Positions 48,474 through 64,000 of a stretch of 64,000 bases of DNA are shown piece after piece. The notes under the pieces are model-generated. The model was not told the DNA's origin. It searched no databases and saw only the letters and a program-made list of their open reading frames with translations. Within the stretch, counting starts at the first letter, position 1. The number at the start of each line of letters is the position of its first letter. The translations under genes and the position numbers were made by a program. The DNA comes from Blastococcus aggregatus (GTDB lineage: Bacteria > Actinomycetota > Actinomycetes > Mycobacteriales > Geodermatophilaceae): positions 1-64,000 of the forward strand of contig NZ_OBQI01000002.1 in assembly GCF_900221005.1 (NCBI RefSeq). Reading direction: 5' to 3'.

Positions 48474-48509
48474 AGCTGGCACCGTAGGCCGAGGCACTGA
48501 CAGAAAGCC

Positions 48510-48710
48510 CTAGTCGACCGAGCTGTCCGCCCGCCGGGCGAGGACCGCCGCCAGCTCGTCGAGGGAGTAGAGCGACGCCTCGTCCGGGCTCCAACGGGGC
48601 TCCATCCGGTAGCGGTGTCGCCAGATCCGGAGCGTCGCCGGACGGACCACGGCGTAGGTCGCGGCGTCGGCGGCGGAGAGCAGGACGGGCGTCGGCGGGA
48701 TCGTCACCAC
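48510..48710 (-). CDS. small MerR/Xis-like HTH protein
   Basis: A 66-residue protein that looks like a winged helix-turn-helix of the excisionase/MerR type: SAADAATYAVVRPATLRIWRHRY, then SLYSLDELAAVLARR. The tyrosine/aspartate spacing after RIWRHRYR resembles Xis/helix-turn-helix-17 proteins. It could be an excisionase or a regulator of island A. The start (GTG) is uncertain. It lies 26 bases downstream of the 48737 gene stop on the same strand. Confidence 0.55.
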   Translation of the reverse strand: MVTIPPTPVLLSAADAATYAVVRPATLRIWRHRYRMEPRWSPDEASLYSLDELAAVLARRADSSVD

Positions 48711-48736
48711 CGGATCATCCCGCGCCGTTCACCGCG

Positions 48737-49738
48737 TTAGGGCCGCGTCGGGAACTGACTCAGCCAGAGGGTGTGGGCAGCCAGTAGCGCCGCCCCGGCC
48801 TCCTGGATGGACTGCGCCCGATGGGTCGTCCGCCAGTCGTTGTCGGCGTTGTAGGCGCGGCGCAGCTCCGGGAGTACCTCGTGCGCGAGGTCGAGGGTGA
48901 CCCGGATGCCCTTCTCCGCCCGGGGCGAGGGCTCGTCGTAGCCCGTTTCCCCGAGGGTGCAGGCGAAGCTGCCGTCGGCCCAGAGCTGGATCTGGGCGTC
49001 CAGGCCGACGACGGTGTCCGAGAGCGTGAAGGTGGCCGGCCCGAAGCCCACGGCGTCCCGCATGATCAACGTCAGCAACTCCATGCGGTCCATGTCGATG
49101 CCGCCGGAGAGCGCCGCCGTACGGAAGACCTGGTCCTGGCAGTGGAGGTTGATCAGTTCCAGGATCGTCAGGGTGTCACTCAGCTCCGGCTTGTTGTACG
49201 TGCGCCAGAGCAGCCAGCGGAAGAAGTCGCCATCCCCCATGGTGAGCACCGTGTCCGAGGTGAGCAGCGTCGCTGCTGGGTCAACCGTTCGCACCGTCTC
49301 GGTCAGGTACGGAGTCACCTGACGCTTGACGGAGACGGCGTCCTTGAGCGTCATCAGGACGAGTAGCTTGCCGTCCTCCCCCGTCCTGCTGATGAAGATG
49401 TCGGCGGCGCGCAGCTCCAGGAGCTGCTCCTGGTCCGCCCCCTTGCCGTAAAACTTGATGGCTGCCGGGCTCGTCTGCCGCCAGTACAGGCGGCCGCGGA
49501 CGTGCTCCGGCACTTCTCCGTCCTCCGCGACGACGATCGCCTCGCCGCCACGGAACGGCACCGGACCCGTGAGCCCGACTCGCGTCTCGTCGTCGGTCAG
49601 CGCGCCCCAACCCGAGTTGAGCACCGACCCCCGCGGCAGGCGGTCCTCGTTCATCGCGGCGGCGAGCTGCGAGAGGGACGCCTTGGTGTTCAGCGTGGCC
49701 GGCGTGACCAGGAGTCGGCCACGGGTTACGGGGGGCAT
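48737..49738 (-). CDS. unknown protein, third gene of island A operon
   Basis: A 333-residue soluble protein with no signal peptide or membrane segment; no family recognised. Composition is mixed alpha/beta, with one region reading RLYWRQTSPAAIKFYGKGADQEQLLELRAADIFISRTG and another FFRWLLWRTYNKPELSDTLTILELI, not obviously catalytic. Its ATG overlaps the stop of the membrane-anchored gene at 49738 (ATGA), so the two should be translated together. It may be the effector or sensor partner of that gene. Confidence 0.65.
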   Translation of the reverse strand: MPPVTRGRLLVTPATLNTKASLSQLAAAMNEDRLPRGSVLNSGWGALTDDETRVGLTGPVPFRGGEAIVVAEDGEVPEHVRGRLYWRQTSPAAIKFYGKGADQEQLLELRAADIFISRTGEDGKLLVLMTLKDAVSVKRQVTPYLTETVRTVDPAATLLTSDTVLTMGDGDFFRWLLWRTYNKPELSDTLTILELINLHCQDQVFRTAALSGGIDMDRMELLTLIMRDAVGFGPATFTLSDTVVGLDAQIQLWADGSFACTLGETGYDEPSPRAEKGIRVTLDLAHEVLPELRRAYNADNDWRTTHRAQSIQEAGAALLAAHTLWLSQFPTRP

Positions 49739-50394
49739 CAGTTCGTCCTGTCCAGCTGGAACTTCGTGAGGTTGGGCACCTTGCGTACCAGACGGGCGAC
49801 GAAGTTCCGGAACCGACCCCGAGCGACCACACGGTAGACCACCGGCACCGTCGCGGAGTTTGGAGCGCGGACCACTCGCACCACGCAGTCCGACCAGTTG
49901 GCCGGCGCCTGGTCGGTGAGGTCGAGGTCGAACTCCAGCCCGCGCCGGACGCCCCGCACCTGAGCGAGGTCGGCTGGGGGCGACTTCTCGTGGACGACGT
50001 CGAGGAACTGGCTGCCCAGCTCCAGGCGCGCCGCCGGACTGCCCGATTTGAGGATCGCCCGCACCGCCGAGGCCAGCACCGAGCGGCCGTCCCACTCGAC
50101 CAGCACCTGGAACGGACGCTCGGCCGGGGGGTGCGCGAACCCATGGGTGCCGTTGGGCACCGGCAGCTTGTTCTCGTCGGACCAGGTGAACGTCACCCTG
50201 GGGAGCAGCAGCAGCCGGTTGCCCAGGAAGACGACGAGCACCGCGCTGAGCAGCAGGGAGATGACGTCCGGCACGATCTTCCACGCGAGCCCTTCCAAGG
50301 GCTCGAACAGTGGATCGATCTCGCTCTTGACCCAAATCGTCGCGATGATCCGGGCGACGTCCCAGGACCCGGACTTGACAGCCTCGGAGATCAA
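49738..50394 (-). CDS. membrane-anchored unknown protein, second gene of island A operon
   Basis: A 218-residue protein with a single transmembrane segment at about residues 42-62 (VPDVISLLLSAVLVVFLGNRL), preceded by an ~40-residue amphipathic stretch and followed by a soluble domain. The soluble part contains QVLVEWDGRSVLASAVRAIL and ends LTKFQLDRTN; no known motif. It has ATGA overlaps on both sides (50391-50394 and 49738-49740), placing it in the middle of a tightly coupled three-gene operon. Confidence 0.65.
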   Translation of the reverse strand: MISEAVKSGSWDVARIIATIWVKSEIDPLFEPLEGLAWKIVPDVISLLLSAVLVVFLGNRLLLLPRVTFTWSDENKLPVPNGTHGFAHPPAERPFQVLVEWDGRSVLASAVRAILKSGSPAARLELGSQFLDVVHEKSPPADLAQVRGVRRGLEFDLDLTDQAPANWSDCVVRVVRAPNSATVPVVYRVVARGRFRNFVARLVRKVPNLTKFQLDRTN

Positions 50395-50876
50395 CCCAGC
50401 CGCACCTTGGACCAGGCGACGCGGAGCGCGGAGATCAGCTCGTCAGGCGACGAGTTGTTCCCGGTGATGGAGCCGAAGCGCCCCAGGCGGAAGCGACGGC
50501 GACTCGGCTCGCTGACGGTGATCGCGACGATGTAGATGTCCTCTGCCTCCCGGTTGAGGTAGCGGAGCGCGCCGGAGACGTCGCCGTCGCTGATCAGCTC
50601 CCGGAGTTTCGCCGACACCTCGTCGGCTTCCTCGCCCTCCACCGGGTGCATCCGCCGGTCACGGAACTCGAACCGCTCGACCCTGAAGCCCCGATCGCTC
50701 AGTGCGGCGACCAGTCGCACGAACGCATCGGTGCCGAGGCGCGGCACGTGCAGGGAGGCGTCGTCCGACTCCAGCTCGTCTGGCCCCTTGGCCAGCGGGT
50801 TCTCCACGGCGTCGAGCTGCTCAGACCCGTCCCCGCGATCGCGGAGGACGAGCTGAACGGGGGGCACGTTCGACAT
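50391..50876 (-). CDS. unknown soluble protein, first gene of island A operon
   Basis: A 161-residue protein without a recognised domain. It starts MSNVPPVQLVLRDRGDGSEQL and contains DAFVRLVAALSDRGFRVERFEFRDRR and a C-terminal SPDELISALRVAWSKVRLG helix; overall alpha/beta with high Arg and Asp. ATG 50876 is chosen over a longer open frame because the upstream extension is Pro/Ser/Gly-rich and the coding signal begins here. It leads the three-gene operon; a promoter would lie in 50877-51051. Confidence 0.65.
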   Translation of the reverse strand: MSNVPPVQLVLRDRGDGSEQLDAVENPLAKGPDELESDDASLHVPRLGTDAFVRLVAALSDRGFRVERFEFRDRRMHPVEGEEADEVSAKLRELISDGDVSGALRYLNREAEDIYIVAITVSEPSRRRFRLGRFGSITGNNSSPDELISALRVAWSKVRLG

Positions 50877-51051
50877 ACTGCCCGCCCCTGCTGATGGTTT
50901 CGCCCGGGGGCGATTTTCGCCCGCTAACGATCCAGCGACGGCCGGGACGGCGTCGCCGTAAGTACTGGCTCGGTGGGGCTCGACCCCCGGTCCGCCGCAG
51001 CAGCTCCGCGACGAGGACGGCGGCCGGGGATCGAGGTCTAGTGGGTCACCG

Positions 51052-51470
51052 TCAGGCGCGGACGCCCCGGACGATGTCGAACGCCTTGGACCGGGCGACG
51101 GCGAGATCACACGTCGACCAACCGACCAGGCCGAAAGAGCCCGACTCGACCATGTAGCGCTCCTGGAGCACGGTCACCTGGAGCGCCGTCCGGACGCCGA
51201 GGATCAGCTGCCGGAAGTCGCCGGTGAATACGTCGCTGGTGTCGTTGCTCGTCCCGGTCGTGAACGCCGTACCGACCTGCGACGTCGTGAGCCGGCGGAC
51301 GCCGTCGAGGTAACCGGGGGCGGCAGGTACGCGCCCGAGCCGTCCTTGAGCTTCGCGAGGGTGCGCGCGGTGCGATCGGCCATGATCTGGGCGGTCGGCT
51401 CCTCGTTCACGTCCCGGCAGGACCACTCGTCCGGTGAGAGAACGTCTTCTTATCGCTCTCCAGGGCTTGG
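51052..51470 (-). pseudogene. HK97-type major capsid protein remnant with frameshifts
   Basis: The minus-strand segment reads TTSQVGTAFTTGTSNDTSDV, then FTGDFRQLILGVRTALQVTVLQERY and ends DLAVARSKAFDIVRGVRA, characteristic of the C-terminal part of tailed-phage HK97-fold capsid proteins. Just upstream, AQIMADRTARTLAKLKDGSGAYLPPP belongs to the same protein in another frame; the frames meet in a C5 run near 51318-51322. Another shift is needed near 51440. Only the C-terminal third of a ~300-400-residue capsid is present, so it is a degenerate gene. Confidence 0.7.
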
Positions 51471-51678
51471 ACAGGTCGCCCGGGATCTGCGGGCCGTGGT
51501 CGGGGCAGCCAGCCCGGGTAGATACGCCCGCCGGCAATGCAGCGGGGTGGGCGGCGCCCGTTTTGTCACTGCTGCTCGACCATGTGGATATCTGCGCGCC
51601 AGACCCATCGAACCTGACATTCTGACGCCGTCGGCGAGGTCACCTGCCTCGCGGCCACACAGGCTTCGGAGCGCACGC

Positions 51679-51975
51679 ATGGACTACAACGCGCGGGTCG
51701 AGCTCGACTCCCACGACTTCGACGAGGTGGCCGTGGACGTCCTGATGGACGTCGTCGCCGACCATCGCGGTGTCGTTGCCCGGGCGGTGCATGGCGGCCG
51801 CGTCGAGCTGATCTTCACCGTGCCGGCCGATTCGATCCGGCTGGCGACGGTCACGGCGCTGTCCGTCGTTCTGGCCACCGGGCACGAGGTCTACGCGCTC
51901 GAGGTGCTGCCCACCGACGAGTTCCACCGGCGCACCGACCGCAGAGAGCCGGCCGAGGTCGTCAGCTACCCCTGA
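51679..51975 (+). CDS. small unknown protein of island A
   Basis: A 98-residue protein: MDYNARVELDSHDFDEVAVDVLMDVVADHRGVV, later TGHEVYALEVLPTDEFHRR. It is rich in Asp, Val and Ala and predicted alpha/beta, with a ferredoxin-like feel but no assigned family. It is one of the few plus-strand genes in the island and is monocistronic. ATG 51679 has GAGCGCACGC rather than a strong Shine-Dalgarno upstream. Similar short orphan proteins are typical of phage-derived DNA. Confidence 0.55.
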   Translation: MDYNARVELDSHDFDEVAVDVLMDVVADHRGVVARAVHGGRVELIFTVPADSIRLATVTALSVVLATGHEVYALEVLPTDEFHRRTDRREPAEVVSYP

Positions 51976-52051
51976 CCGCCGGCCGCCGCGCCACCGAAAG
52001 CAACCGCCCCACCTTCCGTCATGGGCGGTGGGGCAGTTGTCGCTTCCGGCG

Positions 52052-53524
52052 TTACGGAAGGCTCTCGCAGGCGAGACCGTCTCTGTCGTTGCCATCGAGT
52101 CCGGCGACGTCTCCGTAGGCGGGGAAGTACCGGTCGAACCAGGCCTGAGCTTGGGCTCGGGTGGAGAAATCGCTGCAGTTCATGGTGTCCCCAGGATTCC
52201 CGACCGACACCGGCGGCGGTGGCGGGGGTGGCGGCGGCGGAGGGAGGGGCGCGGGCCTCGTGACAGGTGGCGGCGGAAGGGGTGCCGGCCTGGGCGCAGG
52301 CGGCGGCGCGGGCACCGCACGAGGAGCGGGGCGCGGTGGGACGACCACCACCGGCGGCTGGTCCCGCGGCGCAGGCTGGGCCACCGGAGGGGGCGGGGTT
52401 GGCGACTGCCGCTCCGGCACATCCACCACCACACCAGCCGGCAGCGGCTCGTTCGGGCAGGCCGACAGCACCGTGGCGATCGCGTTCCTCTCCGCCTGGG
52501 TCATCCACAGGTCATAGGTCGCCTTCACGGCCACCTGCCGGGCAACGTAGGCGCAGCGGTAGGACTTGTTCGGGGGCAGCCAGGTGGCGGCGTCCCCGTC
52601 GCCCTTCTGCATGTTCAGCGGCCCGTCGACGGCCAGCAGGTTCAGCGGATCGTTGGCGAACGCCCGACGCCGGTCCTCCGGCAGCTGCTGGGCGCCCTTC
52701 TGCCAGGCGTCCGACAGCGCCACCACATGGTCGATCTGCACGTCGTCACTGGTGGTCTGCCCGCGCTGAAACGCGATGGTCTTCGGCGAGTACGGGTCGG
52801 CCAGGGTGCCGGTCAGGACCACACAGTTCTGTGTTCCGGGCTTGAACGTCTCGGCGGTCAGGTCCCGCTTCAGGATGTCGTTGCGGGTGTCGCAGCCGTT
52901 GCGGTCGGTGTCGACCCATCCGGAGCCGAACAGGTCACGGTCGTAGCCCGTGCGCGGCGCACGTCCCTTCACCTCGATGGCGGCCAGGGCGGCCAGTGCG
53001 GTCGTCTGGCCGGCTCCGGCGACGGCCTGTTCGACTGCCTGGTCGGGCAGCTGACCAGGCTCGCCGCTGCCTTCGGGGACTACCCGTTCCTCGGCAGCGA
53101 CCAGTGACTCTTCCGCGGCTCGAATCTCGGCTTCCTCGGCCGCTTCCGCCTCCGCGCGTTCGGCCTCGGCCTTCTGGTCGGCTGCGCGTTCGCGCGCCTC
53201 CGCTTCGCGGTCTGCGGTCTCACGGGCGGCCTCTGACGCCGCGCTGGTCGTGTCCGTCGGTGTGGGTGGCGATGCCACGGTGCCCACGATCATCAGTCCG
53301 ACGGCGGCCGCGGCGACGCCACCAGCAACCTTCCGACTGCCGATACCCGGCAGGCGGCCGCGGGCCACCGCCACCAGCCCCACGATCAAGCCGATGAGCC
53401 CGATCATGACGACTCCGCCGGCCCACCCACTCGAAGCGAAACCAGCGATCACCAGCAACAGGGCGAAGCCCCCGGCCGCGATGCCCACGCCGCGCCAGAC
53501 GCGCGCACTCCTGCTACCTGCCAT
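52052..53524 (-). CDS. membrane-anchored HNH (DUF1524-like) nuclease with Excalibur domain
   Basis: A 490-residue protein in clear modules: two transmembrane helices (about residues 15-80), a Glu/Ala-rich coiled coil, an HNH nuclease core of the DUF1524/GmrSD type (DHVVALSDAW then DPLNLLAVDGPLNMQKGD), a Pro-rich linker (about 365-435) and a C-terminal Excalibur calcium-binding motif (GLDGNDRDGLACE). The catalytic HNH histidine and asparagines are intact. The nuclease is probably displayed on the cell surface. ATG 53524 was chosen; longer frames add non-membrane residues. It is common in phages and plasmids of actinobacteria. Confidence 0.8.
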   Translation of the reverse strand: MAGSRSARVWRGVGIAAGGFALLLVIAGFASSGWAGGVVMIGLIGLIVGLVAVARGRLPGIGSRKVAGGVAAAAVGLMIVGTVASPPTPTDTTSAASEAARETADREAEARERAADQKAEAERAEAEAAEEAEIRAAEESLVAAEERVVPEGSGEPGQLPDQAVEQAVAGAGQTTALAALAAIEVKGRAPRTGYDRDLFGSGWVDTDRNGCDTRNDILKRDLTAETFKPGTQNCVVLTGTLADPYSPKTIAFQRGQTTSDDVQIDHVVALSDAWQKGAQQLPEDRRRAFANDPLNLLAVDGPLNMQKGDGDAATWLPPNKSYRCAYVARQVAVKATYDLWMTQAERNAIATVLSACPNEPLPAGVVVDVPERQSPTPPPPVAQPAPRDQPPVVVVPPRPAPRAVPAPPPAPRPAPLPPPPVTRPAPLPPPPPPPPPPPVSVGNPGDTMNCSDFSTRAQAQAWFDRYFPAYGDVAGLDGNDRDGLACESLP

Positions 53525-53714
53525 GCCGTGTGCCCCTGTCCCCCGTGCGAACCTGGACCGTATCGGTCGATGGGTGCAGGGGCCAGGAACCTCTCGGAAC
53601 GACGTGACGTGAGGTAACGAGGCGACACGTCCGTTCGCAACAGGAATAGGGCCCCTGAGCCCCGCCCGCAGCTTCTCTGACCAACTCATCAAGGTGAGCA
53701 GGAAGCGGGGGCTA

Positions 53715-53743
53715 GGTCAATACGACGGTCAGGACACGTCTAT
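53715..53743 (+). repeat. island A boundary repeat, right copy (att-like)
   Basis: AGGTCAATACGACGGTCAGG plus ACACGTCTA, 27/29 identical to 47997-48025. The sequence continuing to its right (to ~53860) is again weakly similar to that right of the left copy. yifB sequence does not resume here, so a further element must follow. Confidence 0.7.
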
Positions 53744-53994
53744 CCGACCTCTCCGACCAGGCGCGGACCGGATGCCCCGGGGTCGAGGCGTCACGGACGA
53801 AAGGCATCACCATCCACTTCTCGCACAGGGGGGACGCGTAGAGACAGCTGAACAGCGAGAACTGTGCGGGCAGTCGTGGGTGACGGTGCGTGGCGGCCAG
53901 CGACCGTGGGAACGGGTCCACTTGCGTGGCCGCACGGTAACGGGCAGTCCCCGGGCCGATACCGTTACGACACCGACCCGGAAGGGACCCTCGC

Positions 53995-54162
53995 ATGGCT
54001 TCACGCCGACGTGGTGCGTACCTCGTCTACCTGCTGCGGGCGAACACGCCCCACCGGCCCCGTCGCCTGCACCGCCTCAGCGACATGGACGGCCAGGGCA
54101 CCGACCTGCTTGAGTGCATCCACAAGGCGCTGACGGACCTGGGACCCAGCATGGCAACTTAA
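53995..54162 (+). CDS. small basic protein ending in the 44-bp repeat
   Basis: A 55-residue Arg-rich protein, MASRRRGAYLVYLLRANTP then HRLSDMDGQGTDLLECIHKAL. The stop codon TAA lies inside the 44-bp direct repeat (54152-54195), so its last few codons are supplied by the repeat. This may mean the original 3' end was replaced on integration. Composition and a leader GAAGGGACCCTCGC suggest it is real, but the evidence is thin. Confidence 0.4.
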   Translation: MASRRRGAYLVYLLRANTPHRPRRLHRLSDMDGQGTDLLECIHKALTDLGPSMAT

Positions 54163-54195
54163 GGACGGTCGCAGCCGATCGCCGCGCGGTGCCAC
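54152..54195 (+). repeat. 44-bp perfect direct repeat, left copy
   Basis: Identical to 63903-63946 over 44 bases, with different sequence on each side; it starts TGGCAACTTAAGGACGG and ends GCGGTGCCAC. The two copies are 9751 bp apart in the same orientation. An attachment-site pair or a recombination scar is the likely explanation. Confidence 0.85.
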
Positions 54196-54728
54196 ACTGG
54201 CGGGGCGGCACGGCGCAGAAGATCCTCGCTGACCACATCGAGACGTACAGCATGCAATCGGGCAGCGCCGGACGCCGTGACCGGCTGCGGGCCGCAGCAC
54301 GGGAGTATGCGACCCCCGCCGTCCCGGCCGCGCTGGTGTGGATATTCGGCGTCCGGCCGCAGGCCGTGGCTGAACTCATCGCCGGGCTGGCGGCGCTGAC
54401 CGCGCTCCTCTTCGCTCTGCTCATCCTGGTGTGGCAGCAGGGCATCCAGATCAGGAACGACCCCCGCTGGAGGACCACGGACCCCGTGGTGACGATGGTC
54501 GATGACCTGCGGGCGAACCTCACGTACTCGTCCGCCCTGTCGCTGTGCCTGGTGGCTGGCCTCGTCGTCGCCGCAGCGACAGCGCCGCAGGCCCCCGAAG
54601 GCCAGCCCGACCCGGGGCTCTCGCTGTGGTGGGCGGTCCCCCTGACGTGGCTGGCCGCGCATCTGGTCGTCGTGTTGATGGGCATTTTGCGCCGCCTGCG
54701 GAGCACGTACTTGGAGCTGACCACCTGA
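54189..54728 (+). CDS. membrane protein with two helical pairs
   Basis: A protein of up to 179 residues (158 from ATG 54252) with strongly hydrophobic segments near WIFGVRPQAVAELIAGLAALTALLF and later SALSLCLVAGLVVAAA and WWAVPLTWLAAHLVVVL, so three to four helices with a short cytosolic loop (RNDPRWRTTDPVVTMVDDL). No family recognised; small multi-helix membrane proteins in defence islands are often effectors. GTG 54189 lies inside the 44-bp repeat, so the start codon could be supplied by the repeat. Confidence 0.5.
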   Translation: MPHWRGGTAQKILADHIETYSMQSGSAGRRDRLRAAAREYATPAVPAALVWIFGVRPQAVAELIAGLAALTALLFALLILVWQQGIQIRNDPRWRTTDPVVTMVDDLRANLTYSSALSLCLVAGLVVAAATAPQAPEGQPDPGLSLWWAVPLTWLAAHLVVVLMGILRRLRSTYLELTT

Positions 54729-54794
54729 CGGCTGCCCGACCACCGAGGCGGGAGACACTGCCCCCATGACCAGCGCGCGTCAGGACCCCGTCAC

Positions 54795-55175
54795 GTGCCC
54801 GGTGATCTCGGTTCGTTCCAATACCGGGTACCGGTTGGTGGGCGAGACCGGATCGCTGGCCGTGAACCTGTACGCGGCGGGCACACCCCCATGCACGGGT
54901 TCGCCTCAAAGCGACCCATCGCCACCGGCGTGGCACAGGTGCGCATCGGAGACGAGCTGCGGGTGGAGCGGCGCGGCGACGGGTGGGTGGCGCTGGACGA
55001 CGAGGGCGTGGTGGGCACCCTCCGGTGGCTGGCCAGCCGGGACGGCAAGCCGGACATGAACGGCCTGATGCTGCGCTTCCCCGCGCACGGCGTCCTGCGG
55101 GTGCGGCAGCTGGTGGTGGGACCGGACGGCTTGGTCAAGGACGTGGGCGGTGAGGTTACGCCTGCTTCCAGGTGA
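54795..55175 (+). CDS. unknown protein, probably frameshifted near 54890
   Basis: The convincing part is residues after ~32: RIGDELRVERRGDGWVALDD, then GVVGTLRW and LRFPAHGVLRVRQLVVGPDG, a small beta-rich domain with no assigned family. The first 32 residues look out of frame. In the next frame 54766-54890 reads CPVISVRSNTGYRLVGETGS then LAVNLYAAGTP and fits better as the real N-terminus. One extra C in the C5 run at 54886-54890 would join the two. So the gene is either 54766-55175 with a frameshift or starts at ATG 54891. Confidence 0.45.
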   Translation: MPGDLGSFQYRVPVGGRDRIAGREPVRGGHTPMHGFASKRPIATGVAQVRIGDELRVERRGDGWVALDDEGVVGTLRWLASRDGKPDMNGLMLRFPAHGVLRVRQLVVGPDGLVKDVGGEVTPASR

Positions 55176-55199
55176 CTTCTTCTCCGAGGGACGGATGCT

Positions 55200-55559
55200 G
55201 TGAAGGGTGACGAGGCCCGGGTGGTGGCGGCCTTCTGCGCCTACCTGACGGCTGACGGCTGGGCCGTCCAGACCGGGGTCAAATGGGTGGACGTGGTGGC
55301 CCGGCGGGACGGGCGGACGATCTACGCCGAGGTGAAGGGCAGGGCGGGGCCGGACACAGGGACGGCGCTCGACATCCTGTACGGGCAGCTGTTGCGGCGC
55401 ATGGAGGGCGAAGACGTGCCCGGCGTTCGCTACGCCGTGGTGGTCCCCGACGTGGCGGTCACTTCAGCGCAGCGGGTCCCGGCATGGGTACGGGCACGGC
55501 TGCGCATCGACGTGTACGTGGTAACCGAGGACGACCAGGTCACTCTGGCGGCAGGGTGA
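55200..55559 (+). CDS. small PD-(D/E)xK nuclease-like protein
   Basis: A 119-residue protein with the restriction-endonuclease core: VKWVDVVARRDGRTIYAEVKGRAG gives Asp and ExK in the right spacing (about residues 29-46), preceded by a helix EARVVAAFCAYLTADGW. This is a minimal nuclease fold, probably metal-dependent DNA cleavage or a VRR-like/restriction accessory role. GTG 55200 has GAGGGACGG upstream. It lies 24 bases after the frameshift-prone gene on the same strand and could be expressed with it. Confidence 0.65.
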   Translation: MKGDEARVVAAFCAYLTADGWAVQTGVKWVDVVARRDGRTIYAEVKGRAGPDTGTALDILYGQLLRRMEGEDVPGVRYAVVVPDVAVTSAQRVPAWVRARLRIDVYVVTEDDQVTLAAG

Positions 55560-55627
55560 CCCGTCAATGTCCGCTAGACGGGACCACCACCTCTGCCACA
55601 TGACGGCCTGGACTGCGTGACCGCAGG

Positions 55628-56290
55628 TTAGGGGGGTGGAGGGGACTTATCCGTCGTGCGACGCGACGAGAAGTGACGGCGGCGACGCTCCGGCGGTTGC
55701 TCCTCCACCATCACCCAGCGGGTCAGCTTCTCCATTTGCACAAAGCTGGCGTCCACCCTGGACAAGGTGAGGCCGGCGTTCTGATCCCACTCATTCGCGT
55801 CGTCCCCCTCGCTGAACTCGAGCCGACCTAGCACGTCCAGCATGGCCCTTGTCACGGCTTCGTTGTGATCAGCCAGCTGCGGCAGCAAGGACCAGACGTT
55901 CGAGTCGCTGACAACGACGCGCGCGGTCCACAGCGCCCGCTCATGGGCCGCAGCGAGCTCGCGGTACATGTCCACGAGGGTCTGAGCCGGTCTTTGCCCT
56001 TCGGGTCGGGCGAAGTGAGCGGCGGCAATCAGTCGGCGCGTAGCACGGGACCACTCCCGGCCGGTGAGCAGCACGTCCACGAGAGCATCGCGCTGCTCGA
56101 CGCGCCGCTTCTCGTGCAGGTCCAGGCGGCGCTGCTCGGCTCCGTGCCGCTGGGTCCAGCGCACGCCCAGCAACGCGAAGCCGCCCGCGATGAGCGCCGT
56201 CACGATGCTGAGCCACCACGGCGCTCCCCCAGTCCCCACGGACGGGGACGCTACGGACAGCTTGCCCTCACGGTCACCCCTCCGCGTCAC
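55628..56290 (-). CDS. single-pass membrane protein, unknown
   Basis: A 220-residue protein with one N-terminal membrane helix (PWWLSIVTALIAGGFALLGV, about residues 24-43) and a charged, helical cytosolic part (RRLDLHEKRRVEQRDALVDVLL). The remainder has no known domain; the C-terminus is basic and Pro-rich. Stands alone on the minus strand between plus-strand genes. Function unknown. Confidence 0.55.
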   Translation of the reverse strand: MTRRGDREGKLSVASPSVGTGGAPWWLSIVTALIAGGFALLGVRWTQRHGAEQRRLDLHEKRRVEQRDALVDVLLTGREWSRATRRLIAAAHFARPEGQRPAQTLVDMYRELAAAHERALWTARVVVSDSNVWSLLPQLADHNEAVTRAMLDVLGRLEFSEGDDANEWDQNAGLTLSRVDASFVQMEKLTRWVMVEEQPPERRRRHFSSRRTTDKSPPPP

Positions 56291-56739
56291 ACCCGGAGAC
56301 CAACGAAGCTAGCGACCCGGCCGGTTGACGACTCCTCCGAGTTGGGGACCTGAGGTTCCGGCCTGTCGCCGGCCAGGTCAGCGAGCAGCGATGGAAAGAA
56401 GGCGGGACGTCACCGGTTTAGTTGACTGCTTGGCCCATCGAGCCGCTCGGTCGCGCGTCGCGCAGGGCGCGGACGTAGGCGTGTGCCCTCCGGACGTCCC
56501 GTTTGGTCTCGCGCGATGGAACGGCGGGTCGCGGTGCGGGGCCCATGACGCCCGGTGACAGGGCCGCTGTAACGCTCGGTCTCAGCGATCAGCCGCTGGC
56601 GCCCCAGCATGAGCGCCGGCGTGTGCAGAGGAGTCAACTCAACACGGGGGCAGTCCCCCGTGTGACAGACCAGGGTCAGCCTCTTCGTCCCGGGGTGAGT
56701 GCCCGCCGCGCGGCCGCCTGGCGAGCCGCCCAGACCCCG
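56291..56739. other. 449-base stretch without a convincing gene
   Basis: Short open frames exist on both strands but overlap one another and show no protein-like composition or start signal. No tRNA, CRISPR or large inverted repeat seen. It may be degenerate element DNA. Confidence 0.5.
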
Positions 56740-57060
56740 TCAGAGTCGGTCGATCCAGGTGTCCTCGTCGCGGCTGTCCCAACTCGACGTCGATCGCGCC
56801 TGCGGCGCAGATGTGGACGCCAGCCGCTCTAGTGCGCGCAGCGCCTCAGCGCGGGTCAGCGACCGCAACGAGTCGACCGGCCGTCCTACGGCGACCTCGA
56901 TGGCCTGCTGCCGCTCGGCCGTAGCAGTGAGGCCGCGGGCGGTCAACGCCTCCCTCAGGGAGTCGACCATCCAGCCGGCGAGAGGCTGCTCAGTGGGGAC
57001 GATGGGCTGATCGGGCTCACTTGGTGGATCCTCGCCGAAGAGTGAGAGGTCGCCTGGCAC
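56740..57060 (-). CDS. small unknown protein
   Basis: A 106-residue acidic protein: GWMVDSLREALTARGLTATAERQQAIEVAVGRPVDSLRSL, then TRAEALRALERLA. It has a helix-loop-helix look similar to SAP-like or helical DNA-binding modules, but no family is certain. The N-terminal part is Pro/Asp-rich. GTG 57060 is the likely start. Confidence 0.45.
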   Translation of the reverse strand: MPGDLSLFGEDPPSEPDQPIVPTEQPLAGWMVDSLREALTARGLTATAERQQAIEVAVGRPVDSLRSLTRAEALRALERLASTSAPQARSTSSWDSRDEDTWIDRL

Positions 57061-57211
57061 GGGCGCAATGCTAGGAGGACGGGACTGCTGCGACTTCAGT
57101 TGACAACTCGTTTTGCGCGACCTTGCCCCCCGGGGAAGATGTCGCTGTGCCCAAAACGCTCCTGCCGTCTGAGAAGGTGATGCTCGTCAGGACCCAGCGA
57201 GCCGCGTGACT

Positions 57212-57231
57212 CTGTCAGCACCTGCTGACAG
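57212..57231. promoter_or_regulatory. perfect palindrome upstream of the methyltransferase operon
   Basis: CTGTCAGCA-CC-TGCTGACAG has 9-bp perfect arms and ends nine bases before the GTG at 57241 and 158 bases before the methyltransferase ATG. The size and position suit a dimeric repressor operator. A transcription terminator is less likely because no U-tract follows. Confidence 0.45.
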
Positions 57232-57240
57232 GCTGGTCGG

Positions 57241-57393
57241 GTGACCACCCTCGCTGCCGCTTCAGAAGGCACTCTGGCGAGGCCTGAAGTGCCACTGTCG
57301 CCAGACCTGCTGGCCCGAGCCGCCGACTACGCCGCGGCCGCCCGAGCGGTAAGCACCTTGTCGGCGACCGCCGTCCGGCTGGGGCTGTCATGA
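57241..57393 (+). CDS. short ORF resembling an integrase N-terminus
   Basis: A 50-residue frame whose middle, LARAADYAAAARAVST, resembles the start of the core-binding domain of tyrosine integrases (typically AADYARASRAxNTRRAY). The following residues SATAVRLGLS do not continue it, so this may be a truncated integrase start or a small gene coupled to the methyltransferase: its TGA overlaps the ATG at 57390 (ATGA). Both readings are tentative. Confidence 0.35.
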   Translation: MTTLAAASEGTLARPEVPLSPDLLARAADYAAAARAVSTLSATAVRLGLS

Positions 57394-59441
57394 CTAGCGG
57401 CGTCACTCCCGACGCGTCCGTTGCGGCCGGTCACCGGACCCGGGCGGCGCTCAACGTCGACCTGCTCAAGGTGCCTGACTTCGGCACCTCTGGCGAACCC
57501 GAGCGGAACATCCTGCGTAGCCCGTTGCGACACCTGGACGCCGAGGCAATTTCTGCGCGGGTCCGCCGTGAGGTCCGCAACCGCGAGGTCCACCTGCCCC
57601 CGGTGAGCACCTACCGCTGGTGGGCCCGTCGTACCGAGTCGGTGAACGGGGCAATCATCGACGCGGTCAACTCTGACCACCCCGGCCGCCTGGTGGTCAG
57701 CGACCCCTTCGCCGGCGGTGGGGTCATCCCTCTGGCCGCAGTAATGCGCGGGCACAGTGTCTACGCCCAAGATCTCAACCCCTGGGCCGCCGCCGGCCTG
57801 GCAGCGATGTTGGACCTGCCCGACCCCGAGTCGCTGCGGGCCGGCGTCGCCGCGCTGTCCCAGCGGGTGCTGGCTCCAGCCCAGGCCGCCTACGGAACCG
57901 TGCTGTCCAACGGAACGCCGGGCCAGGTCTCACACACCTTCCGGGTCGCGGTGGCGGCCTGCACGCACTGCGGCACCAGACAGAAGCTGTTCCCGCATGC
58001 CCTTGTCAGCCTGCTTAGCCGGGTCGAACGCGGTCTCCCCGAGGCCTTTCTGGCCTGCCCGAACGGTCACCTGTTCCAGGGGCACCGGGACCGCACCCGA
58101 CGCTGTCCCACTTGCTCGGTTCTCATCGACCCGGCGGCCACCTACACCCCGCGTCGGGTGGTGACCTGCCCGTGCGGCCACCAGGACCGGCTGGAGGCCC
58201 GCGCCGCCGTCACCGGGCTGGACTGGGAGGTGGTGCTCGTCGAGCGCGCTGGCGGCGGCCGCCGTGAGCTCGGGTTGCCGACGCCTGGGGAACTGAGCGC
58301 CGCGGCTGCCGAGCACAGTCGCCCAACCCGCCAGTTGGGCGCCATTCCGGCCGGGCAAGAAACCGCGGTCCTGCTGCGCCACGGCTTCCGCAACTGGGAG
58401 GACCTCTACCCACGGCGGCAGCGGGCGATGGTGGAGCAACTGCTGGACCTCACCGTCGAGTCGTCGTCCGACCCCGCCGTCGTGGCGGCTCTGCGCCTGG
58501 CGGTAGTGGGTTCGACCGAGATGGCCGGCCTGCTGTCGCGGTGGGACCGCTACTACCTCAAGAGTTATGAGTCAATGGCCGGGCATCGGTTCAACTTCAC
58601 GACCCTGCCGGTGGAGCCCAACGCCTGGGGCACGGTGACCAGCGGTCGCGGAACGACGCTGCGGCGCCTGGTCCAGCTGGTCAAGGCTGCCGAATGGCTG
58701 CAGGGGCGCACAGGCCGGCGCCTGCAGGTGCAGGGTCCTGTTGCGGCCGCGTCCGCCAGCGTGAGTCCGCTGGTGGGTACAGACGTCGACGGGGTGGCGC
58801 TGCAGCGACCCGACGTCCTGGTGGTCGCCGGCAGCTCTCAGCGCCAACTGCTGCCGACGGGATCGGTCGACCTTGTGCTGACCGACCCGCCGTACCACGA
58901 CGACGTGCAGTACGGAGAACTCTCTCAGCCTCTGCAGGCCTGGGCGGGACTGGCCAGCCCGGAGTCCGTCGGGGACGCGGTGGTCAACCGGGCTACCGGC
59001 CAGCTGGTCGCAGCCGGGAGCTACTCGGCACTGCTCAGCTCGATCTTCCGCGAGTCGGCCCGCCTGCTCCGGCCCGACGGCCACCTGATTTTCAGCTTCG
59101 CCAACCGCGACCCGAAGGTGTGGGTGGAGTTGCTTGAGGCGCTGCAGCGCGCCGGCTTGCGCGCGGCCGGCTGCGCAGTCGTGCACAGCGAAAACGAGAC
59201 CGACCACGCCAAGCGCGGGGTGCGTGCCTGCACGCTCGATCTGCTTCTCGATCTGGTGCCTCTGTCCACGAAGCCGGTTGAGCAGCACCGCCCGGCGACA
59301 GCAGCAGGCGACGAGGGACAGTTCCTCGACATTGTCACGCGGTACGTGCTACAGGTCGGCGACCTAGGCACCGGCTGGCACGAGGCCTTCTTGGAGCAAG
59401 CTGCGGCCGCCGCGTTCGTCCAGCCGCGGCGACGCGGTTAA
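57390..59441 (+). CDS. DUF1156-like adenine-specific DNA methyltransferase with zinc ribbons
   Basis: A 683-residue protein. N-terminal VSTYRWWARR (about 72-81) is a DUF1156-type signature; motif I is DPFAGGG (105-111) for SAM and motif IV DPPY (499-502) marks N6-adenine/N4-cytosine methyltransferases. The insert between them holds zinc-binding pairs CTHC (191-194), CP..C (223) with CPTC (239-242) and CPCG (260-263), absent from classical R-M enzymes. It probably methylates one strand of a target site to mark self DNA. It faces, 43 bases apart, the minus-strand SNF2/DUF3883 operon. Confidence 0.82.
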   Translation: MTSGVTPDASVAAGHRTRAALNVDLLKVPDFGTSGEPERNILRSPLRHLDAEAISARVRREVRNREVHLPPVSTYRWWARRTESVNGAIIDAVNSDHPGRLVVSDPFAGGGVIPLAAVMRGHSVYAQDLNPWAAAGLAAMLDLPDPESLRAGVAALSQRVLAPAQAAYGTVLSNGTPGQVSHTFRVAVAACTHCGTRQKLFPHALVSLLSRVERGLPEAFLACPNGHLFQGHRDRTRRCPTCSVLIDPAATYTPRRVVTCPCGHQDRLEARAAVTGLDWEVVLVERAGGGRRELGLPTPGELSAAAAEHSRPTRQLGAIPAGQETAVLLRHGFRNWEDLYPRRQRAMVEQLLDLTVESSSDPAVVAALRLAVVGSTEMAGLLSRWDRYYLKSYESMAGHRFNFTTLPVEPNAWGTVTSGRGTTLRRLVQLVKAAEWLQGRTGRRLQVQGPVAAASASVSPLVGTDVDGVALQRPDVLVVAGSSQRQLLPTGSVDLVLTDPPYHDDVQYGELSQPLQAWAGLASPESVGDAVVNRATGQLVAAGSYSALLSSIFRESARLLRPDGHLIFSFANRDPKVWVELLEALQRAGLRAAGCAVVHSENETDHAKRGVRACTLDLLLDLVPLSTKPVEQHRPATAAGDEGQFLDIVTRYVLQVGDLGTGWHEAFLEQAAAAAFVQPRRRG

Positions 59442-59484
59442 TTACCTAGACAACTGACCCGTCGCTACGGGCATATCGGCCGCC

Positions 59485-60420
59485 TCATACCCAGACGTCC
59501 AGAGGAAGACCAGGGGTGAAGTCGGTGGTGGGCACGCTCAGTCGCACGCTGGTCCAGCGTCCTTGCGGGGACAGGTCGCGGGGCAGCAGCGGCAAGAGGG
59601 TGACGCCGCGGCACCAACCGACTATATGAAGGCTCATATCCGCCTCCCGTCGTACAGCGACGAGGCACCAAGACGGGTCACGCTCGCCAACGGTCGCCTC
59701 GTTCCTTGACAGGAAGAACTCCACCAGCCCGCCGGCGGCGCTGCCAGTGGTCTTGATCTCCATGCGGTGGCGGTGCCCGGTGACGTCGGGGCTGGTGACG
59801 TCGTAGCCAAGCTGGTCGCTCCGAAGGCTGACCTGGTGCACTTGGGCCGCGAGGTCGGGGCGCTGTTGATCATCGCGCAGGTAGCGCCGGCACGCCCATA
59901 CGACGTGCTCCTCCCCCGCCTTGCCGTACTCAGCCAGCAGCGCAGCGTCGAGGGTGCGCCCAAGGGTGAGCAGCAGCGCTTCCCGGCGGGCGGCGTCCGC
60001 CAGTAGCTGACGAAGCGCATCCTGATCGGCGTCAGGGACGTTCTCCCAGCGGACCTCGTCGTCGACGACTGCCGCGTACAGCCACAGTGGGGGCTCACGC
60101 AGCAGCAGCTCGTGCAGCAGGAGCTCGGCGGCAACGTCATCGGGGAGATCCCGGAGCCGCTTCAGCGACTCCGAGGGGATGTGGCGGCCGCCCTCCTCGG
60201 ACACGAGTCGGGAGCGCACCAGCAGCTGATGGCCGGCCTGCAGGTCCTGCGGCCGATACAGCCCCCCGGTGACGAGCTTGCCGTAGCTCTCGATCAACGC
60301 CGAAGTAGTGTTCCCGGTTGGCTCTAGCACCCGGCCGGCGAGGACGGCTGCGTGCAGCTGGAAGGCCGTTGGTGTGGTCCGGCTGCTGCTCGAGGCACCG
60401 GGCGGGGGGCTGGTGATCAC
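59485..60420 (-). CDS. DUF3883-domain PD-(D/E)xK nuclease
   Basis: A 311-residue protein. The C-terminal domain (about 165-290) matches DUF3883: GEEHVVWACRRYL, GYDVTSPD (205-212), MEIKTTG (220-226) and FFLSRNEA (235-242). The GYD and ExK residues fit a PD-(D/E)xK nuclease active site, and DUF3883 proteins are frequent in restriction and defence loci. The first ~160 residues are helical and unassigned, perhaps for partner binding. GTG start overlaps the helicase stop (GTGA at 60417-60420), so it is coupled to it. Confidence 0.7.
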   Translation of the reverse strand: MITSPPPGASSSSRTTPTAFQLHAAVLAGRVLEPTGNTTSALIESYGKLVTGGLYRPQDLQAGHQLLVRSRLVSEEGGRHIPSESLKRLRDLPDDVAAELLLHELLLREPPLWLYAAVVDDEVRWENVPDADQDALRQLLADAARREALLLTLGRTLDAALLAEYGKAGEEHVVWACRRYLRDDQQRPDLAAQVHQVSLRSDQLGYDVTSPDVTGHRHRMEIKTTGSAAGGLVEFFLSRNEATVGERDPSWCLVAVRREADMSLHIVGWCRGVTLLPLLPRDLSPQGRWTSVRLSVPTTDFTPGLPLDVWV

Positions 60421-62306
60421 TCCTCCCCGCGGAGGTGGGCGAACAGGGCGACGAGGTCGTCGTGGGTGTCGATCGCGGGCCCGTAGTCCTCATCGGACGG
60501 CAGCGCCATCGTCGCGATGTCCGGATCGTCGAGCATCTCCCCGAGGCGGGCTGCCTTCTCTTTGATGCGGTCGTCCACCACCTCGTCGATGGTGCCGTTG
60601 CTGACAAGGAAGCTGATGCGTGTGCTCTGGCCGGGCGGCAGGCCGAGTCGATGAATCCGGTCGATGCTCTGCAAGTACTGGCCGGCGTTGAATGTCCGGT
60701 CGAGGTAGATCGCGTCGTGGCAGTCGTGGTGCAGGCTGACGCCCTCGCTCATCGCTGCCGGGTTGGCTAGCAACACCGTGCAGGAAGGGTCATTCCTGAA
60801 GCGGTAGAGCTCGCTCTCGCGGGTGCGCGGGGCCGTCGGGTCACTCATCGCCGGCGGGATGCCCCCGTAGATCAGTGCCGGTTCGTGCAGCGCAAGCATC
60901 CGCTCCAGCGTCTGGAGGTTGCGCACAAAGTTGGTCCATACCAGCGTCTTGCGGCCGGCGGCCGCGTTGTCGGCGACCATCTGGGCCAGGTGGGTGAATT
61001 TGGCCGGGGTCTCGTACTGGTTGTACTGCTGCAGCAAGTCCCACAGCTTGCTGCCCGGCGGAACCTCCAGGGGCGGGTGCCGGAACTCGGACTCATCATC
61101 GGCCCCGGAGCCGGCGGTGAGGAGCTGGGGGTTGGTCGCGGCTTCGAGCAGGTACATGAAGATGTCGCCCATCCGCGCGAAGTTCATGCGGTCGGTCATG
61201 CTGACCTGCATTAGCCCGGCGTATCGGTCGCGTAGTGCTTGGTAGATCTCTCGCTGCAGGTCATCGGGCTCGACCTGAATCACGCGAAGTTGCGGTGGCT
61301 CCAGCTGCAGTTCGCCCTTGCGCGTGCGCACGAACAGCGGCGCGATGGCAGCCGCCACCTGGTGCCCGGCGTCGACGGGGGGCGGATTGACCAGCGCGGC
61401 CGAGGGCAGCACCCGCCGGGCCTGCCCCGGCCACAGGTAGTCCAACAGCGCCACGAGGTCCTGCGGGCTCTGGGGTGCAGGGGTGCCGGTGAGAATGTCT
61501 CGGCGGGCGGCCAGGAAGGCGATGCTCAGGCAGGCGCTGCCGAAGGTGCCGTTCCAGCCGCGTTTCATCCGGTGGGCCTCGTCGAGCAGCACGAGGGTGG
61601 GCCGCTTGGCGACCCACCGGGCGAGGTCCTCGTAGTGCCCGCCGAGTCGGTGGTAGTTGACTACCAGTACTTCGGCGTCGTCGGGCACGTCGTCGACGTA
61701 AGGGGCGACGACGGGCTGCGCTCCGTCCGGGAAGCACTCCGCGACCTCGCCCATCCAGGCCTCGAAGGCTGACAACGGGGCGACGACGAGCATCTGCTCA
61801 ACCCGGCCGGCGGTGCGTTCGGCGTCGTAGACGGCGTATGCGACGGTCGTCTTGCCGGCGCCGGGCACGGAGAAGTTGGCCCCGTTGGGCAAAGACAGCA
61901 GGTGCCCGAGATCCCGGATCTGGAATGTGCGCAGGTCGCGGTTGAAACGGCCGCCGGTAAGGCGGTCGGCGACAGCAGCAGCATCCAGCGGTTCCGGGGC
62001 GGTCAGGGACTGGTCGAGGAGACGGCGCTGGGCGCGGGTCTGCTCCAGAAGAGCCCGGAGCTCGGGCTGCCAGCGGATGCCGACGCCATACCGGGTGCAT
62101 GCAGGACGAAGCCACGACATGTGAGCCAGGAGCCGCTCCAAGGAGAGGAGTACCTGCTGTCCGGGCTGGTCGCCGTCCGCGCCCCACTCGCTGATCAGTT
62201 GCAGCCAGAACCCTTTGGGCACCGGCCCAATGCGACTAGCGAGAACGGCCGGCGGACTGCCGGCCAGTGCCAGGCCGAGCGCCGGGTCAGGCACCGGCGG
62301 GTCCAC
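60417..62306 (-). CDS. SNF2-family helicase/ATPase of the defence module
   Basis: A ~629-residue SF2 ATPase. Motifs in order: I SVPGAGKTT (about 146-154), II LLDEAH (240-245), III LTGTPAP (272-278), V EGVSLHHDC and VI QSIDRIHRLG (546-555), which define the SNF2 group. The ~130-residue N-terminal region is unlike chromatin or RapA-type proteins. Starts are uncertain: TTG 62333, GTG 62306 or GTG 62294 all precede the common core and overlap the upstream ParB-like gene end. It likely translocates on DNA for the nuclease partner coupled downstream. Confidence 0.8.
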   Translation of the reverse strand: MDPPVPDPALGLALAGSPPAVLASRIGPVPKGFWLQLISEWGADGDQPGQQVLLSLERLLAHMSWLRPACTRYGVGIRWQPELRALLEQTRAQRRLLDQSLTAPEPLDAAAVADRLTGGRFNRDLRTFQIRDLGHLLSLPNGANFSVPGAGKTTVAYAVYDAERTAGRVEQMLVVAPLSAFEAWMGEVAECFPDGAQPVVAPYVDDVPDDAEVLVVNYHRLGGHYEDLARWVAKRPTLVLLDEAHRMKRGWNGTFGSACLSIAFLAARRDILTGTPAPQSPQDLVALLDYLWPGQARRVLPSAALVNPPPVDAGHQVAAAIAPLFVRTRKGELQLEPPQLRVIQVEPDDLQREIYQALRDRYAGLMQVSMTDRMNFARMGDIFMYLLEAATNPQLLTAGSGADDESEFRHPPLEVPPGSKLWDLLQQYNQYETPAKFTHLAQMVADNAAAGRKTLVWTNFVRNLQTLERMLALHEPALIYGGIPPAMSDPTAPRTRESELYRFRNDPSCTVLLANPAAMSEGVSLHHDCHDAIYLDRTFNAGQYLQSIDRIHRLGLPPGQSTRISFLVSNGTIDEVVDDRIKEKAARLGEMLDDPDIATMALPSDEDYGPAIDTHDDLVALFAHLRGEE

Positions 62307-63705
62307 CGCTGCCAGGAGTCGCGGGCGGAGCAACGGTCAGCAGCTCGGCCGCGGCACGGTGGAACTCCTGCATGGCCTTCGCGAAGGCCGCGTGATCGAA
62401 CGCCGTGCGCTGCCGTACGTCGGTGTAGGCGCCGGTCGCCTTATCCAGCGACCGGGTCGCTTCCTTCAGGAAGACCATGGGCGCGGTCAAATCGTCCAAG
62501 CGCCGGTTGTCGCGCTGCTTGTTCTCGATCGCCGTAGACAGCGCCCCGTACAAGGCAGCGGCGACAGCCTTACGCGGCAGCTCAAGGGGAGGTCCATCGT
62601 TGGTGGGCAAGGCCACGGTGTCATCGGGACCGGCCTGGGCCAGCAGGGTGTAGAGCCCAGACAGCGTCGGGCCGGCGCCGGTCGTCTCGTCATCGAGGAG
62701 GTCCAGCCCCTCAGGTGCCGCCTCAAAATCGGGGGCGCCGCTGCCGAGCAGCGCGTCGACGTGCGGGGCCAGCGCGCTGACCTCTCGCATGGCCCCCTCG
62801 ACGTAGTTGTCCATGAGCGACGCATCGATCTCACGGAGCTTGCGGTACTCCACGCCTGCGATCACTCCGGCGAGCTGGGCGTCCCGGACCCGAGTAGCCT
62901 CCTCGGGCTTGGTGTTCTTCAGCTTCTGATAGTCCTGATCGATCTCGAGCAGAGCCTGACGCTTGTCGTCGAAGTACGTCCAGGTGACGGCACCGCGGCT
63001 GGCGGTACGGACTTCGCGCATGAGGCCGAGGAGTCGCAGCTCAAGCTGGACCAACTCGCTCGCCTTCTTCTTGTCCGCGGCGCTCTCAGTAAGGTCGGAC
63101 CGGATGCGCCGCCCAACCTCCAGCACCGTGAAGTGACCACTCTCGATCAGGTCCTCAATGAACAGCGCCTGACTTGGGAAGCTGTAGTCCTGCTTGACGT
63201 CCTGGCGCATCTGCAGCAGGAGCTCAAGATCAATGATCTCCTTGGTCGTCGCATCCTGGGGCAGGACGAGGACCTTGACGTAGCTCTTCCGAAGCTCCCG
63301 CAGCGCGACGGCTCGGGTGTTCGCGTTGATGAGCACCCCGGCGGTTGTTATCACGCCAGGATCCAGCTGCCCATCGTTGAGCAGGGCCATCTTTATCCGC
63401 TCGTACCCGGAGGTCTCCTGCAGAATCTTGGTGATCGTTGCTTGTGCCTCCGGCCCGTACGGGTTGCCAGCGACCATGTCTTGCACGTCTTGGGACAGTG
63501 ACTGCAGTTGTGCACTGATGCGGTGGCTATGGGGGTTGAGCAGGACGAGGTCAAGATCCACCGAGGCCACCGGCACGACAAGTTCGCTGCCCTTCCACAT
63601 GATGCTGGCGCTGGTGCCCTGGCCGGCAGCCGTCGCCTGCCTGGCGGCCTCTAGAGCGGCGGCGATGCCATCGCGGCGTGCCTCAGTGGTGATGCTGGTT
63701 TTCAT
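62287..63705 (-). CDS. ParB/Srx-like protein of the defence module
   Basis: A 472-residue protein. Its N-terminal half resembles the ParB/sulfiredoxin nuclease fold: LNPHSHRISAQL (about 56-67) and GVLINANTRAVALREL (123-138), as in proteins that read a substrate pocket through (D/N)GNxR-type motifs. Roughly residues 160-320 are long charged helices, likely coiled coil. ATG 63705 overlaps the stop of the partial upstream gene (ATGA), and its stop lies within the start region of the SNF2 gene. ParB-like proteins accompany DNA modification systems (DndB is related), which suggests DNA recognition. Confidence 0.65.
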   Translation of the reverse strand: MKTSITTEARRDGIAAALEAARQATAAGQGTSASIMWKGSELVVPVASVDLDLVLLNPHSHRISAQLQSLSQDVQDMVAGNPYGPEAQATITKILQETSGYERIKMALLNDGQLDPGVITTAGVLINANTRAVALRELRKSYVKVLVLPQDATTKEIIDLELLLQMRQDVKQDYSFPSQALFIEDLIESGHFTVLEVGRRIRSDLTESAADKKKASELVQLELRLLGLMREVRTASRGAVTWTYFDDKRQALLEIDQDYQKLKNTKPEEATRVRDAQLAGVIAGVEYRKLREIDASLMDNYVEGAMREVSALAPHVDALLGSGAPDFEAAPEGLDLLDDETTGAGPTLSGLYTLLAQAGPDDTVALPTNDGPPLELPRKAVAAALYGALSTAIENKQRDNRRLDDLTAPMVFLKEATRSLDKATGAYTDVRQRTAFDHAAFAKAMQEFHRAAAELLTVAPPATPGSGGPAGA

Positions 63706-64000
63706 GATCGCTCCTGGCCGCTGGTGGAGTTGGTCATGATGCCAGCAGGGTCTGACTGATCTGTAGCCATCGCAGCCAGGTCGGTGAGCCCGCGTTCGGT
63801 GTAGACCCGCCCCTCGAAGGCGCGGATCAGATCGTCGCTCTCGCCGCGCTCCGACCATCCCGTACCCAGCAACACCGCGACCCCCGGCAGGACGAGGTTG
63901 CCTGGCAACTTAAGGACGGTCGCAGCCGATCGCCGCGCGGTGCCACCGTCGCGAGCTACAGCGATCAGAATCGCGTAGCGAGGCCGACCACCGGCGTCCC
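63702..64000 (-). CDS. partial gene at the right edge (C-terminal part only)
   Basis: An open frame enters from the right edge and ends at 63702; the part in view encodes about 98 residues, including RYAILIAVARDGG, LKLPGNLVLPGVAVLLGTGW and IRAFEGRVYTERGLTDLAAM. The 44-bp repeat copy (63903-63946) lies inside it and encodes GTARRSAATVLKLP. No family recognised. Its stop overlaps the ParB-like ATG, so it is the first visible gene of that operon. A TTG at 63908 is the first in-view start-like codon but is probably internal. Confidence 0.5.
   Translation of the reverse strand, partial: DAGGRPRYAILIAVARDGGTARRSAATVLKLPGNLVLPGVAVLLGTGWSERGESDDLIRAFEGRVYTERGLTDLAAMATDQSDPAGIMTNSTSGQERS
63903..63946 (+). 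repeat. 44-bp perfect direct repeat, right copy
   Basis: Identical to 54152-54195. This copy lies within an open minus-strand frame, whereas the left copy lies between a small ORF and a membrane-protein gene. The coding context here suggests it is the native copy and the left one a derived scar, but the reverse is possible. Confidence 0.85.

Follow-up and report, generated by a model that had tools for sequence, protein, structure and literature searches.

The window (the whole stretch of DNA analysed, 64,000 nucleotides) comprises bases 1-64000 of contig C8 (866,574 bases) from an assembly of 4.62 Mb. It contains a minus-strand operon, in the order UP, PARB, SNF2 and NOVC, which lies opposite the plus-strand gene MT:

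MT, 57390..59441, plus strand: 683-aa amino-methyltransferase with motifs of the N6-adenine or N4-cytosine type; its predicted role is protection of host sites.
NOVC, 59485..60420, minus strand: DUF3883/NO VEIN C-terminal PD-(D/E)xK nuclease, 311 aa, predicted to cut.
SNF2, 60417..62333, minus strand: SF2/SNF2 ATPase of 638 aa (listed with a TTG start), the predicted DNA motor.
PARB, 62287..63705, minus strand: weakly ParB-like protein, 472 aa.
UP, 63702..64000 in the window and to 64898 of the contig, minus strand: predicted dead type II endonuclease, 398 aa, the window holding the C-terminal part.

The open reading frames (ORFs) of the initial annotation were present as called, as were the stop-start overlaps of 4 nt each that it had described, i.e., ATGA at 63702-63705 (UP/PARB) and GTGA at 60417-60420 (SNF2/NOVC). 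Additionally, the PARB and SNF2 ORFs share 47 nt (62287-62333), an overlap that the annotation had not listed.

Synteny between the window and same-genus genomes ended at 48001 in all 11 genomes searched (48025 in one). In G408, the one genome tested for this, the adjoining DNA picks up again at C8:138841, which places the operon on an insertion of ~91 kb. The stretch running from 48002 to 64000, and on to C8:138840, has no counterpart at the syntenic site of G408 and begins at the same base in 10 of the 11 genomes; it is a large insertion with several mobile-element features. A tRNA was looked for at its left border and none was found. Just upstream of UP, on the same insertion, lies a gene for a TrwC relaxase with helicase, DnaG_N and Toprim domains (1832 aa; L005:2740-8238, contig 65739-71237), of which the genome holds several further copies (69-79% identical). 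The insertion also carries a minus-strand gene (52052-53692) for a 546-aa protein with a GmrSD_C domain (3.2e-24) and a weak Excalibur match, possibly another candidate nuclease. A 119-aa ORF at 55200-55559, which contains the motif AEVKGR and matches NOV_C below threshold (0.023), is perhaps a small PD-(D/E)xK protein.

The methyltransferase motifs reported for MT were all located, i.e., DPFAGGG (aa 105), DPPY (aa 499) and two CxxC. Five cysteines and the DP.F, G.G and DPPY columns are invariant among 14 aligned homologues, and the PADLOC model MTase_II matched MT at 9.4e-24. Despite these motifs, Pfam gave sub-threshold matches only. The label "DUF1156-like" had to be reduced to a distant likeness: DUF1156 was not among the Pfam matches at E<=1, the NCBIfam model DUF1156_antiphage (NF042963) matched partially at 71.3 bits, below its curated cut-off of 1000, and PADLOC DUF1156_MTase scored 39 bits. 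Relatives of MT (25-47% identity) occur in 9 other genomes of 394, where neither PARB nor SNF2 was seen in the neighbouring DNA, which indicates that MT is independent of the PARB/SNF2 pair. The neighbours of these relatives were a PLD-type protein (1), a protein of 250-283 aa (5) and a UP relative (3). The 250-283-aa protein, which adjoins MT relatives of 28-30% identity in L033, L039, L040, L041 and L043 and has no Pfam family in the two copies scanned, possibly represents another unrecognised endonuclease family. Upstream of MT, a 106-aa ORF (56740-57060) has a relative adjoining MT in one locus, L008, of the 23 searched.

The assignment of SNF2 as an SNF2 ATPase was borne out by Pfam matches above cut-off (PF00176, 2.2e-16; Helicase_C, PF00271, 2.8e-7) and by its motor motifs GAGKT, DEAH, LTGTPAP and DRIHRLG; the Walker A G, K and T and the DEAH columns are invariant in 29/29 aligned proteins. 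Likewise, NOVC belongs to DUF3883 (PF13020, NOV_C; 3.6e-6, 27.4 bits against a cut-off of 22.1), and its active site residues E170, D207, E221 and K223 are invariant in 22/22 aligned proteins. The description of PARB as "ParB/Srx-like", however, is only weakly supported. The window protein matched no Pfam family, and no ParB family was present among the Pfam matches of 41 alignment members and 10 distant homologues. When PARB was compared by hhalign with the ParB_N domains of relatives (18 places), the two aligned on the signature box with P 0.002, at a probability of only 14. Its boxes read NP.SHR and N.NTR, and the NCBIfam model parB_part reached E 0.13 and 0.19 at best, in 2/6 homologues scanned. 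PARB has 182 homologues at E<=0.001. A chromosomal ParB was rejected as its identity, the whole PARB alignment giving an hhalign probability of 0.1 against 13 ORFs from real ParB loci, one of which (from L071) is in the wrong frame. DndB, IbrB and other ParB-like proteins are found in defence loci.

A species-genome collection scanned with the PARB alignment through two peptide patterns yielded 16 loci. SNF2 and NOVC follow PARB in 15 of these, the other (L017) stopping inside PARB at a contig end. Eleven loci (L006-L016) carry an MT of the window's kind and four (L018-L021; three checked by Pfam) a methyltransferase of an Eco57I-type cluster. UP is present in 11 of the 16 (L006-L008, L010-L017) and absent from L009 and the Eco57I-type loci. 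The UP-PARB junction is a short overlap or gap at most loci, and MT runs opposite the operon in the window and L006-L009 and in the same direction in L010-L016. A search with SNF2 at E<=1e-60 identified 9 of 394 genomes of the class, the window's included. In the eight others, PARB was adjacent (8/8), a C5 cytosine methyltransferase lay within ~3.5 kb (8/8), and Vsr and NOVC were found in 7/8 and 3/8, respectively. Five plasmids (of six SNF2 plasmid records) and one phage (of four SNF2 phage records) were also examined; in all of them PARB and SNF2 are accompanied by a DUF3883 protein. The fetched stretch included a C5 methyltransferase in 4/6 of these, and a fifth has one elsewhere on the plasmid; on a Streptomyces plasmid (L026) the stretch fetched contained no methyltransferase, and a transposase follows the core. 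As the methyltransferase beside PARB and SNF2 may be of the C5, Eco57I or window type, the pair is constant and the class of methyltransferase varies. The initial annotation had held that rare co-occurrence would speak against its proposed defence module; the genes recur together and form one conserved unit. Rows inside one family are related, and these counts do not represent independent events.

Among viral sequences, a scan with the PARB alignment gave 23 pattern matches, none of them a relative. A scan with a second alignment (A3) gave 103 relatives, of which 80 were kept and five examined. Two viral contigs (L116:4501-11098 and L117:7-6600) carry a full set of the type found in Streptococcus phage Javan191, comprising a protein in the slot beside PARB that UP occupies in the window, PARB, SNF2, NOVC and a C5 methyltransferase. 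On these contigs the system moves as prophage cargo. The slot protein of Javan191 itself (L027) is DpnII/BanI-like (PF24447, 5.4e-8; PF04556, 6.6e-6; PADLOC REase_II, 2.1e-5) and has 268 relatives (120 listed). A search for an intact relative gave no plasmid match and otherwise chance matches, and the UP profile aligned with the Javan191 protein at a probability of 1.6; the protein was counted as neither dead nor alive.

The gene upstream of PARB, which had been listed as unknown, proved to be a relative of type II endonucleases that has lost its catalytic residues. In a structural comparison, the first seven matches of UP were all type II endonucleases, with BsoBI the best. The overall fold resembles those of BsoBI and BstEII over 242 and 250 aligned residues, although identity is just 6-8% and the catalytic residues present in intact relatives of UP are missing from UP itself. 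On fold and on homology to intact enzymes, its ancestry lies in the type II endonuclease superfamily. Membership of UP in any known Pfam family was rejected, the best matches for 33 members being chance-like. Relatives of UP outside the slot beside PARB retain PD...ExK in 5/5 cases, three of which overlap or adjoin MT homologues. In the UP alignment, by comparison, none of the 44 rows keeps D, E or K (the D column being gap-dependent, E and K fixed by a D.GTA motif), which rules out UP as an intact endonuclease and sets the locus apart from a classical type II pair, i.e., an intact endonuclease beside its methyltransferase. The genome may nevertheless encode an unrelated endonuclease at some other place. 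As judged from dN/dS values of 0.19-0.25 (3 comparisons), UP is under purifying selection. A 47-bp stretch of the UP gene (63900-63946) recurs 9.7 kb away at 54149-54195 (46/47 identical, with an abrupt left edge), perhaps as a leftover of a duplicated UP.

The same pattern was seen in two further slot families. At L022-L025, PARB is preceded by an alphaproteobacterial protein whose relatives are encoded, on many plasmids, after a C5 methyltransferase (the L022 slot protein is 29-30% identical to three of these). The methyltransferase-linked copies (L023, L085, L087, L088) have D, E (D in L088) and K; the slot copies have I or V, I, and a retained K. On L023, the PADLOC type II endonuclease model scored 455 bits for the methyltransferase-linked copy vs. 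67 bits (2.8e-19) for the slot copy. For the intact enzyme, 18 plasmid records held relatives and five were fetched; L085, L087 and L088 were used together with L023, and L086 (split into two CDS) and L089 (which adjoins an IS) were left out. The third family is a winged-helix/HNH-like protein that lies beside PARB at the eight ParB/SNF2 loci found via SNF2. The His and last Asn of the HNH motif are missing in 8/8 of these proteins; relatives elsewhere keep both in 7/7 and the middle Asn in 5/7. These relatives have Vsr nearby (7/7), the same C5 methyltransferase family (6/7, L112 being a short contig) and no PARB (0/7). They come from 17 genomes with relatives of the slot protein, of which eight are the SNF2 genomes and seven were examined, G240 and G157 (weak, partial) being left out; row L113 is missing from one comparison and is the same gene read as L104. 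Sequence comparison thus suggests that catalytic residues disappeared from members of three unrelated endonuclease families, two PD-(D/E)xK and one HNH, that occupy the same slot, i.e., three apparent inactivation histories and not 56 events.

These losses bear on whether UP might still be an active nuclease with an unusual active site, in which case the locus would be a normal type II pair to which accessory ATPases have been added. The title of the BsoBI structure, the top match, refers to hydrolysis catalysed by histidine, and UP has invariant residues H213, R214 and D290; however, the replacement of all three canonical residues throughout the alignment and the parallel losses in two unrelated slot families make this very unlikely. 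UP might instead act as a brake or regulator, occupying sites or blocking an active endonuclease for host protection or expression timing, with ParB-like, SNF2 and DUF3883 proteins independent of it. Intact endonuclease relatives do occur at the same locus in L007, L010 and the alphaproteobacterial L023, where the dead copy might therefore only assist, and selection maintains the dead copies. Against this, an intact relative accompanies just 2/12 UP loci (L007 and L010), a search of the window's genome for relatives of UP found no intact one to regulate, and at most loci short overlaps or gaps link the dead gene to its ParB-like neighbour; we consider a brake unlikely. Alternatively, MT or another protein could give specificity, as in type I and type III systems, with SNF2/DUF3883 cutting and UP a scaffold that reads no site. 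The Eco57I-type loci, whose methyltransferases match the M.Eco57I C-terminal domain, have no UP, and a SNF2-DUF3883 fusion with a COG1743 methyltransferase and DUF499 is already described in extracts of PMC3710099 and PMC7641849. Yet at least three unrelated endonuclease families have supplied slot proteins, and what these families have in common is the reading of specific DNA sequences, not a scaffold; recognition through MT seems to us decidedly unlikely.

We therefore favour, with a probability of about 0.6, the view that a type II pair gave rise to an ATP-dependent restriction-modification system in which UP is a non-cutting site reader. The set is conserved, the motifs of MT, SNF2 and NOVC are intact and, as far as can be read from the protein sequences, UP is an endonuclease fold with a lost active site kept under selection. 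With UP devoid of cutting residues and MT present, the simplest reading is that UP reads, PARB and SNF2 move, NOVC cuts and MT protects. MT would methylate a specific sequence, thereby protecting host sites. UP, which would derive from the kind of endonuclease found beside MT homologues, with fold kept and catalysis lost, would read the same site when unmethylated; that UP and MT share one site is suggested by their gene pairing. On foreign DNA, UP would recruit or activate PARB and SNF2, presumably as a complex, and these would use ATP to load on or move along the DNA. NOVC would be the cutting subunit, and the system would probably serve in anti-phage defence. The unclassified methyltransferase/ATPase/nuclease module of the initial annotation holds together as a conserved unit and is better read as restriction-modification because the upstream gene is a catalytically dead type II endonuclease relative.

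A single universal mechanism is disfavoured, with NOVC missing at 5/8 HNH-type loci, UP at L009 and the four Eco57I-type loci, and an intact endonuclease kept at L007, L010 and L023. DUF3883 is therefore not the universal cutter, and another nuclease must act at the NOVC-free loci, for which Vsr or PARB are guesses. More tentatively, at a little under even odds, the ParB-like/SNF2 pair, with or without DUF3883, may serve as a general chassis for ATP-driven restriction, one that took over type II pairs on at least three occasions by making a dead copy of their endonuclease its reader; this would be a distinct restriction-modification type. Unrelated readers and methyltransferases of different chemistry would then plug into one motor. 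If confirmed, the system would represent a route from simple type II pairs to ATP-dependent restriction and a modular reader/motor/nuclease set whose specificity might change by swapping the reader and its methyltransferase. It would also provide a function for proteins that, at loci of this kind, are now labelled "hypothetical protein" or "ParB partition protein".

The possibility that the locus is an already named defence system was rejected, as neither PADLOC nor NCBIfam matched the whole set. In agreement with the initial annotation, no named defence model covered the locus: among the protein models of PADLOC-DB 2.0.0 there was none for PARB or UP, and the others gave component-level matches (SNF2 to DpdE, DrmD, ZorD and others; NOVC to PDC-S36, 1.5e-15; MT partial or generic). 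A search of the PMC literature, which includes few subscription papers, revealed no paper on this set or on dead endonucleases in this role, and the novelty of the system is provisional. Similar gene contents are found in COG1743(DUF1156)-DUF499-SNF2/nuclease operons, which share a methyltransferase, an SNF2 helicase and DUF3883 or another nuclease (extracts of PMC7641849 and PMC3710099). In those operons, however, SNF2 and nuclease are fused and DUF499 is present, and the same extracts mention no ParB-like protein or dead endonuclease; here, SNF2 and DUF3883 are separate ORFs, and DUF499 was absent from the Pfam matches of the four window proteins and the UP family. Some MORC/GHKL-associated restriction-modification operons contain, as do the HNH-type relatives, a SWI2/SNF2 helicase, HNH or EcoRII-like nucleases, Vsr and cytosine methylases, but they are defined by a GHKL ATPase, and the sections of PMC2292703 available mention no ParB-like partner or inactive endonuclease. 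CglI and NgoAVII (PMC4267653) resemble the proposed system in having a methyltransferase, a site-recognising R protein and a separate helicase/ATPase N protein; R bound at its site stimulates ATP hydrolysis, and CglI offers a precedent for a site reader that sets off the ATPase of another protein. LlaJI (PMC1459862) resembles the mechanism proposed here in the restriction of unmethylated DNA, NTP binding and a split between specificity and nuclease. In LlaJI a McrB-like GTPase is the specificity subunit; for the present locus we propose a dead type II endonuclease in that role and, as motor, an SNF2 ATPase partnered by a ParB-like protein. Two subunits are needed in LlaJI, one without a catalytic centre that sets specificity and a PD..(D/E)xK one believed to cut, which provides a precedent for recognition by a subunit that has no catalytic role while another protein acts as the nuclease.
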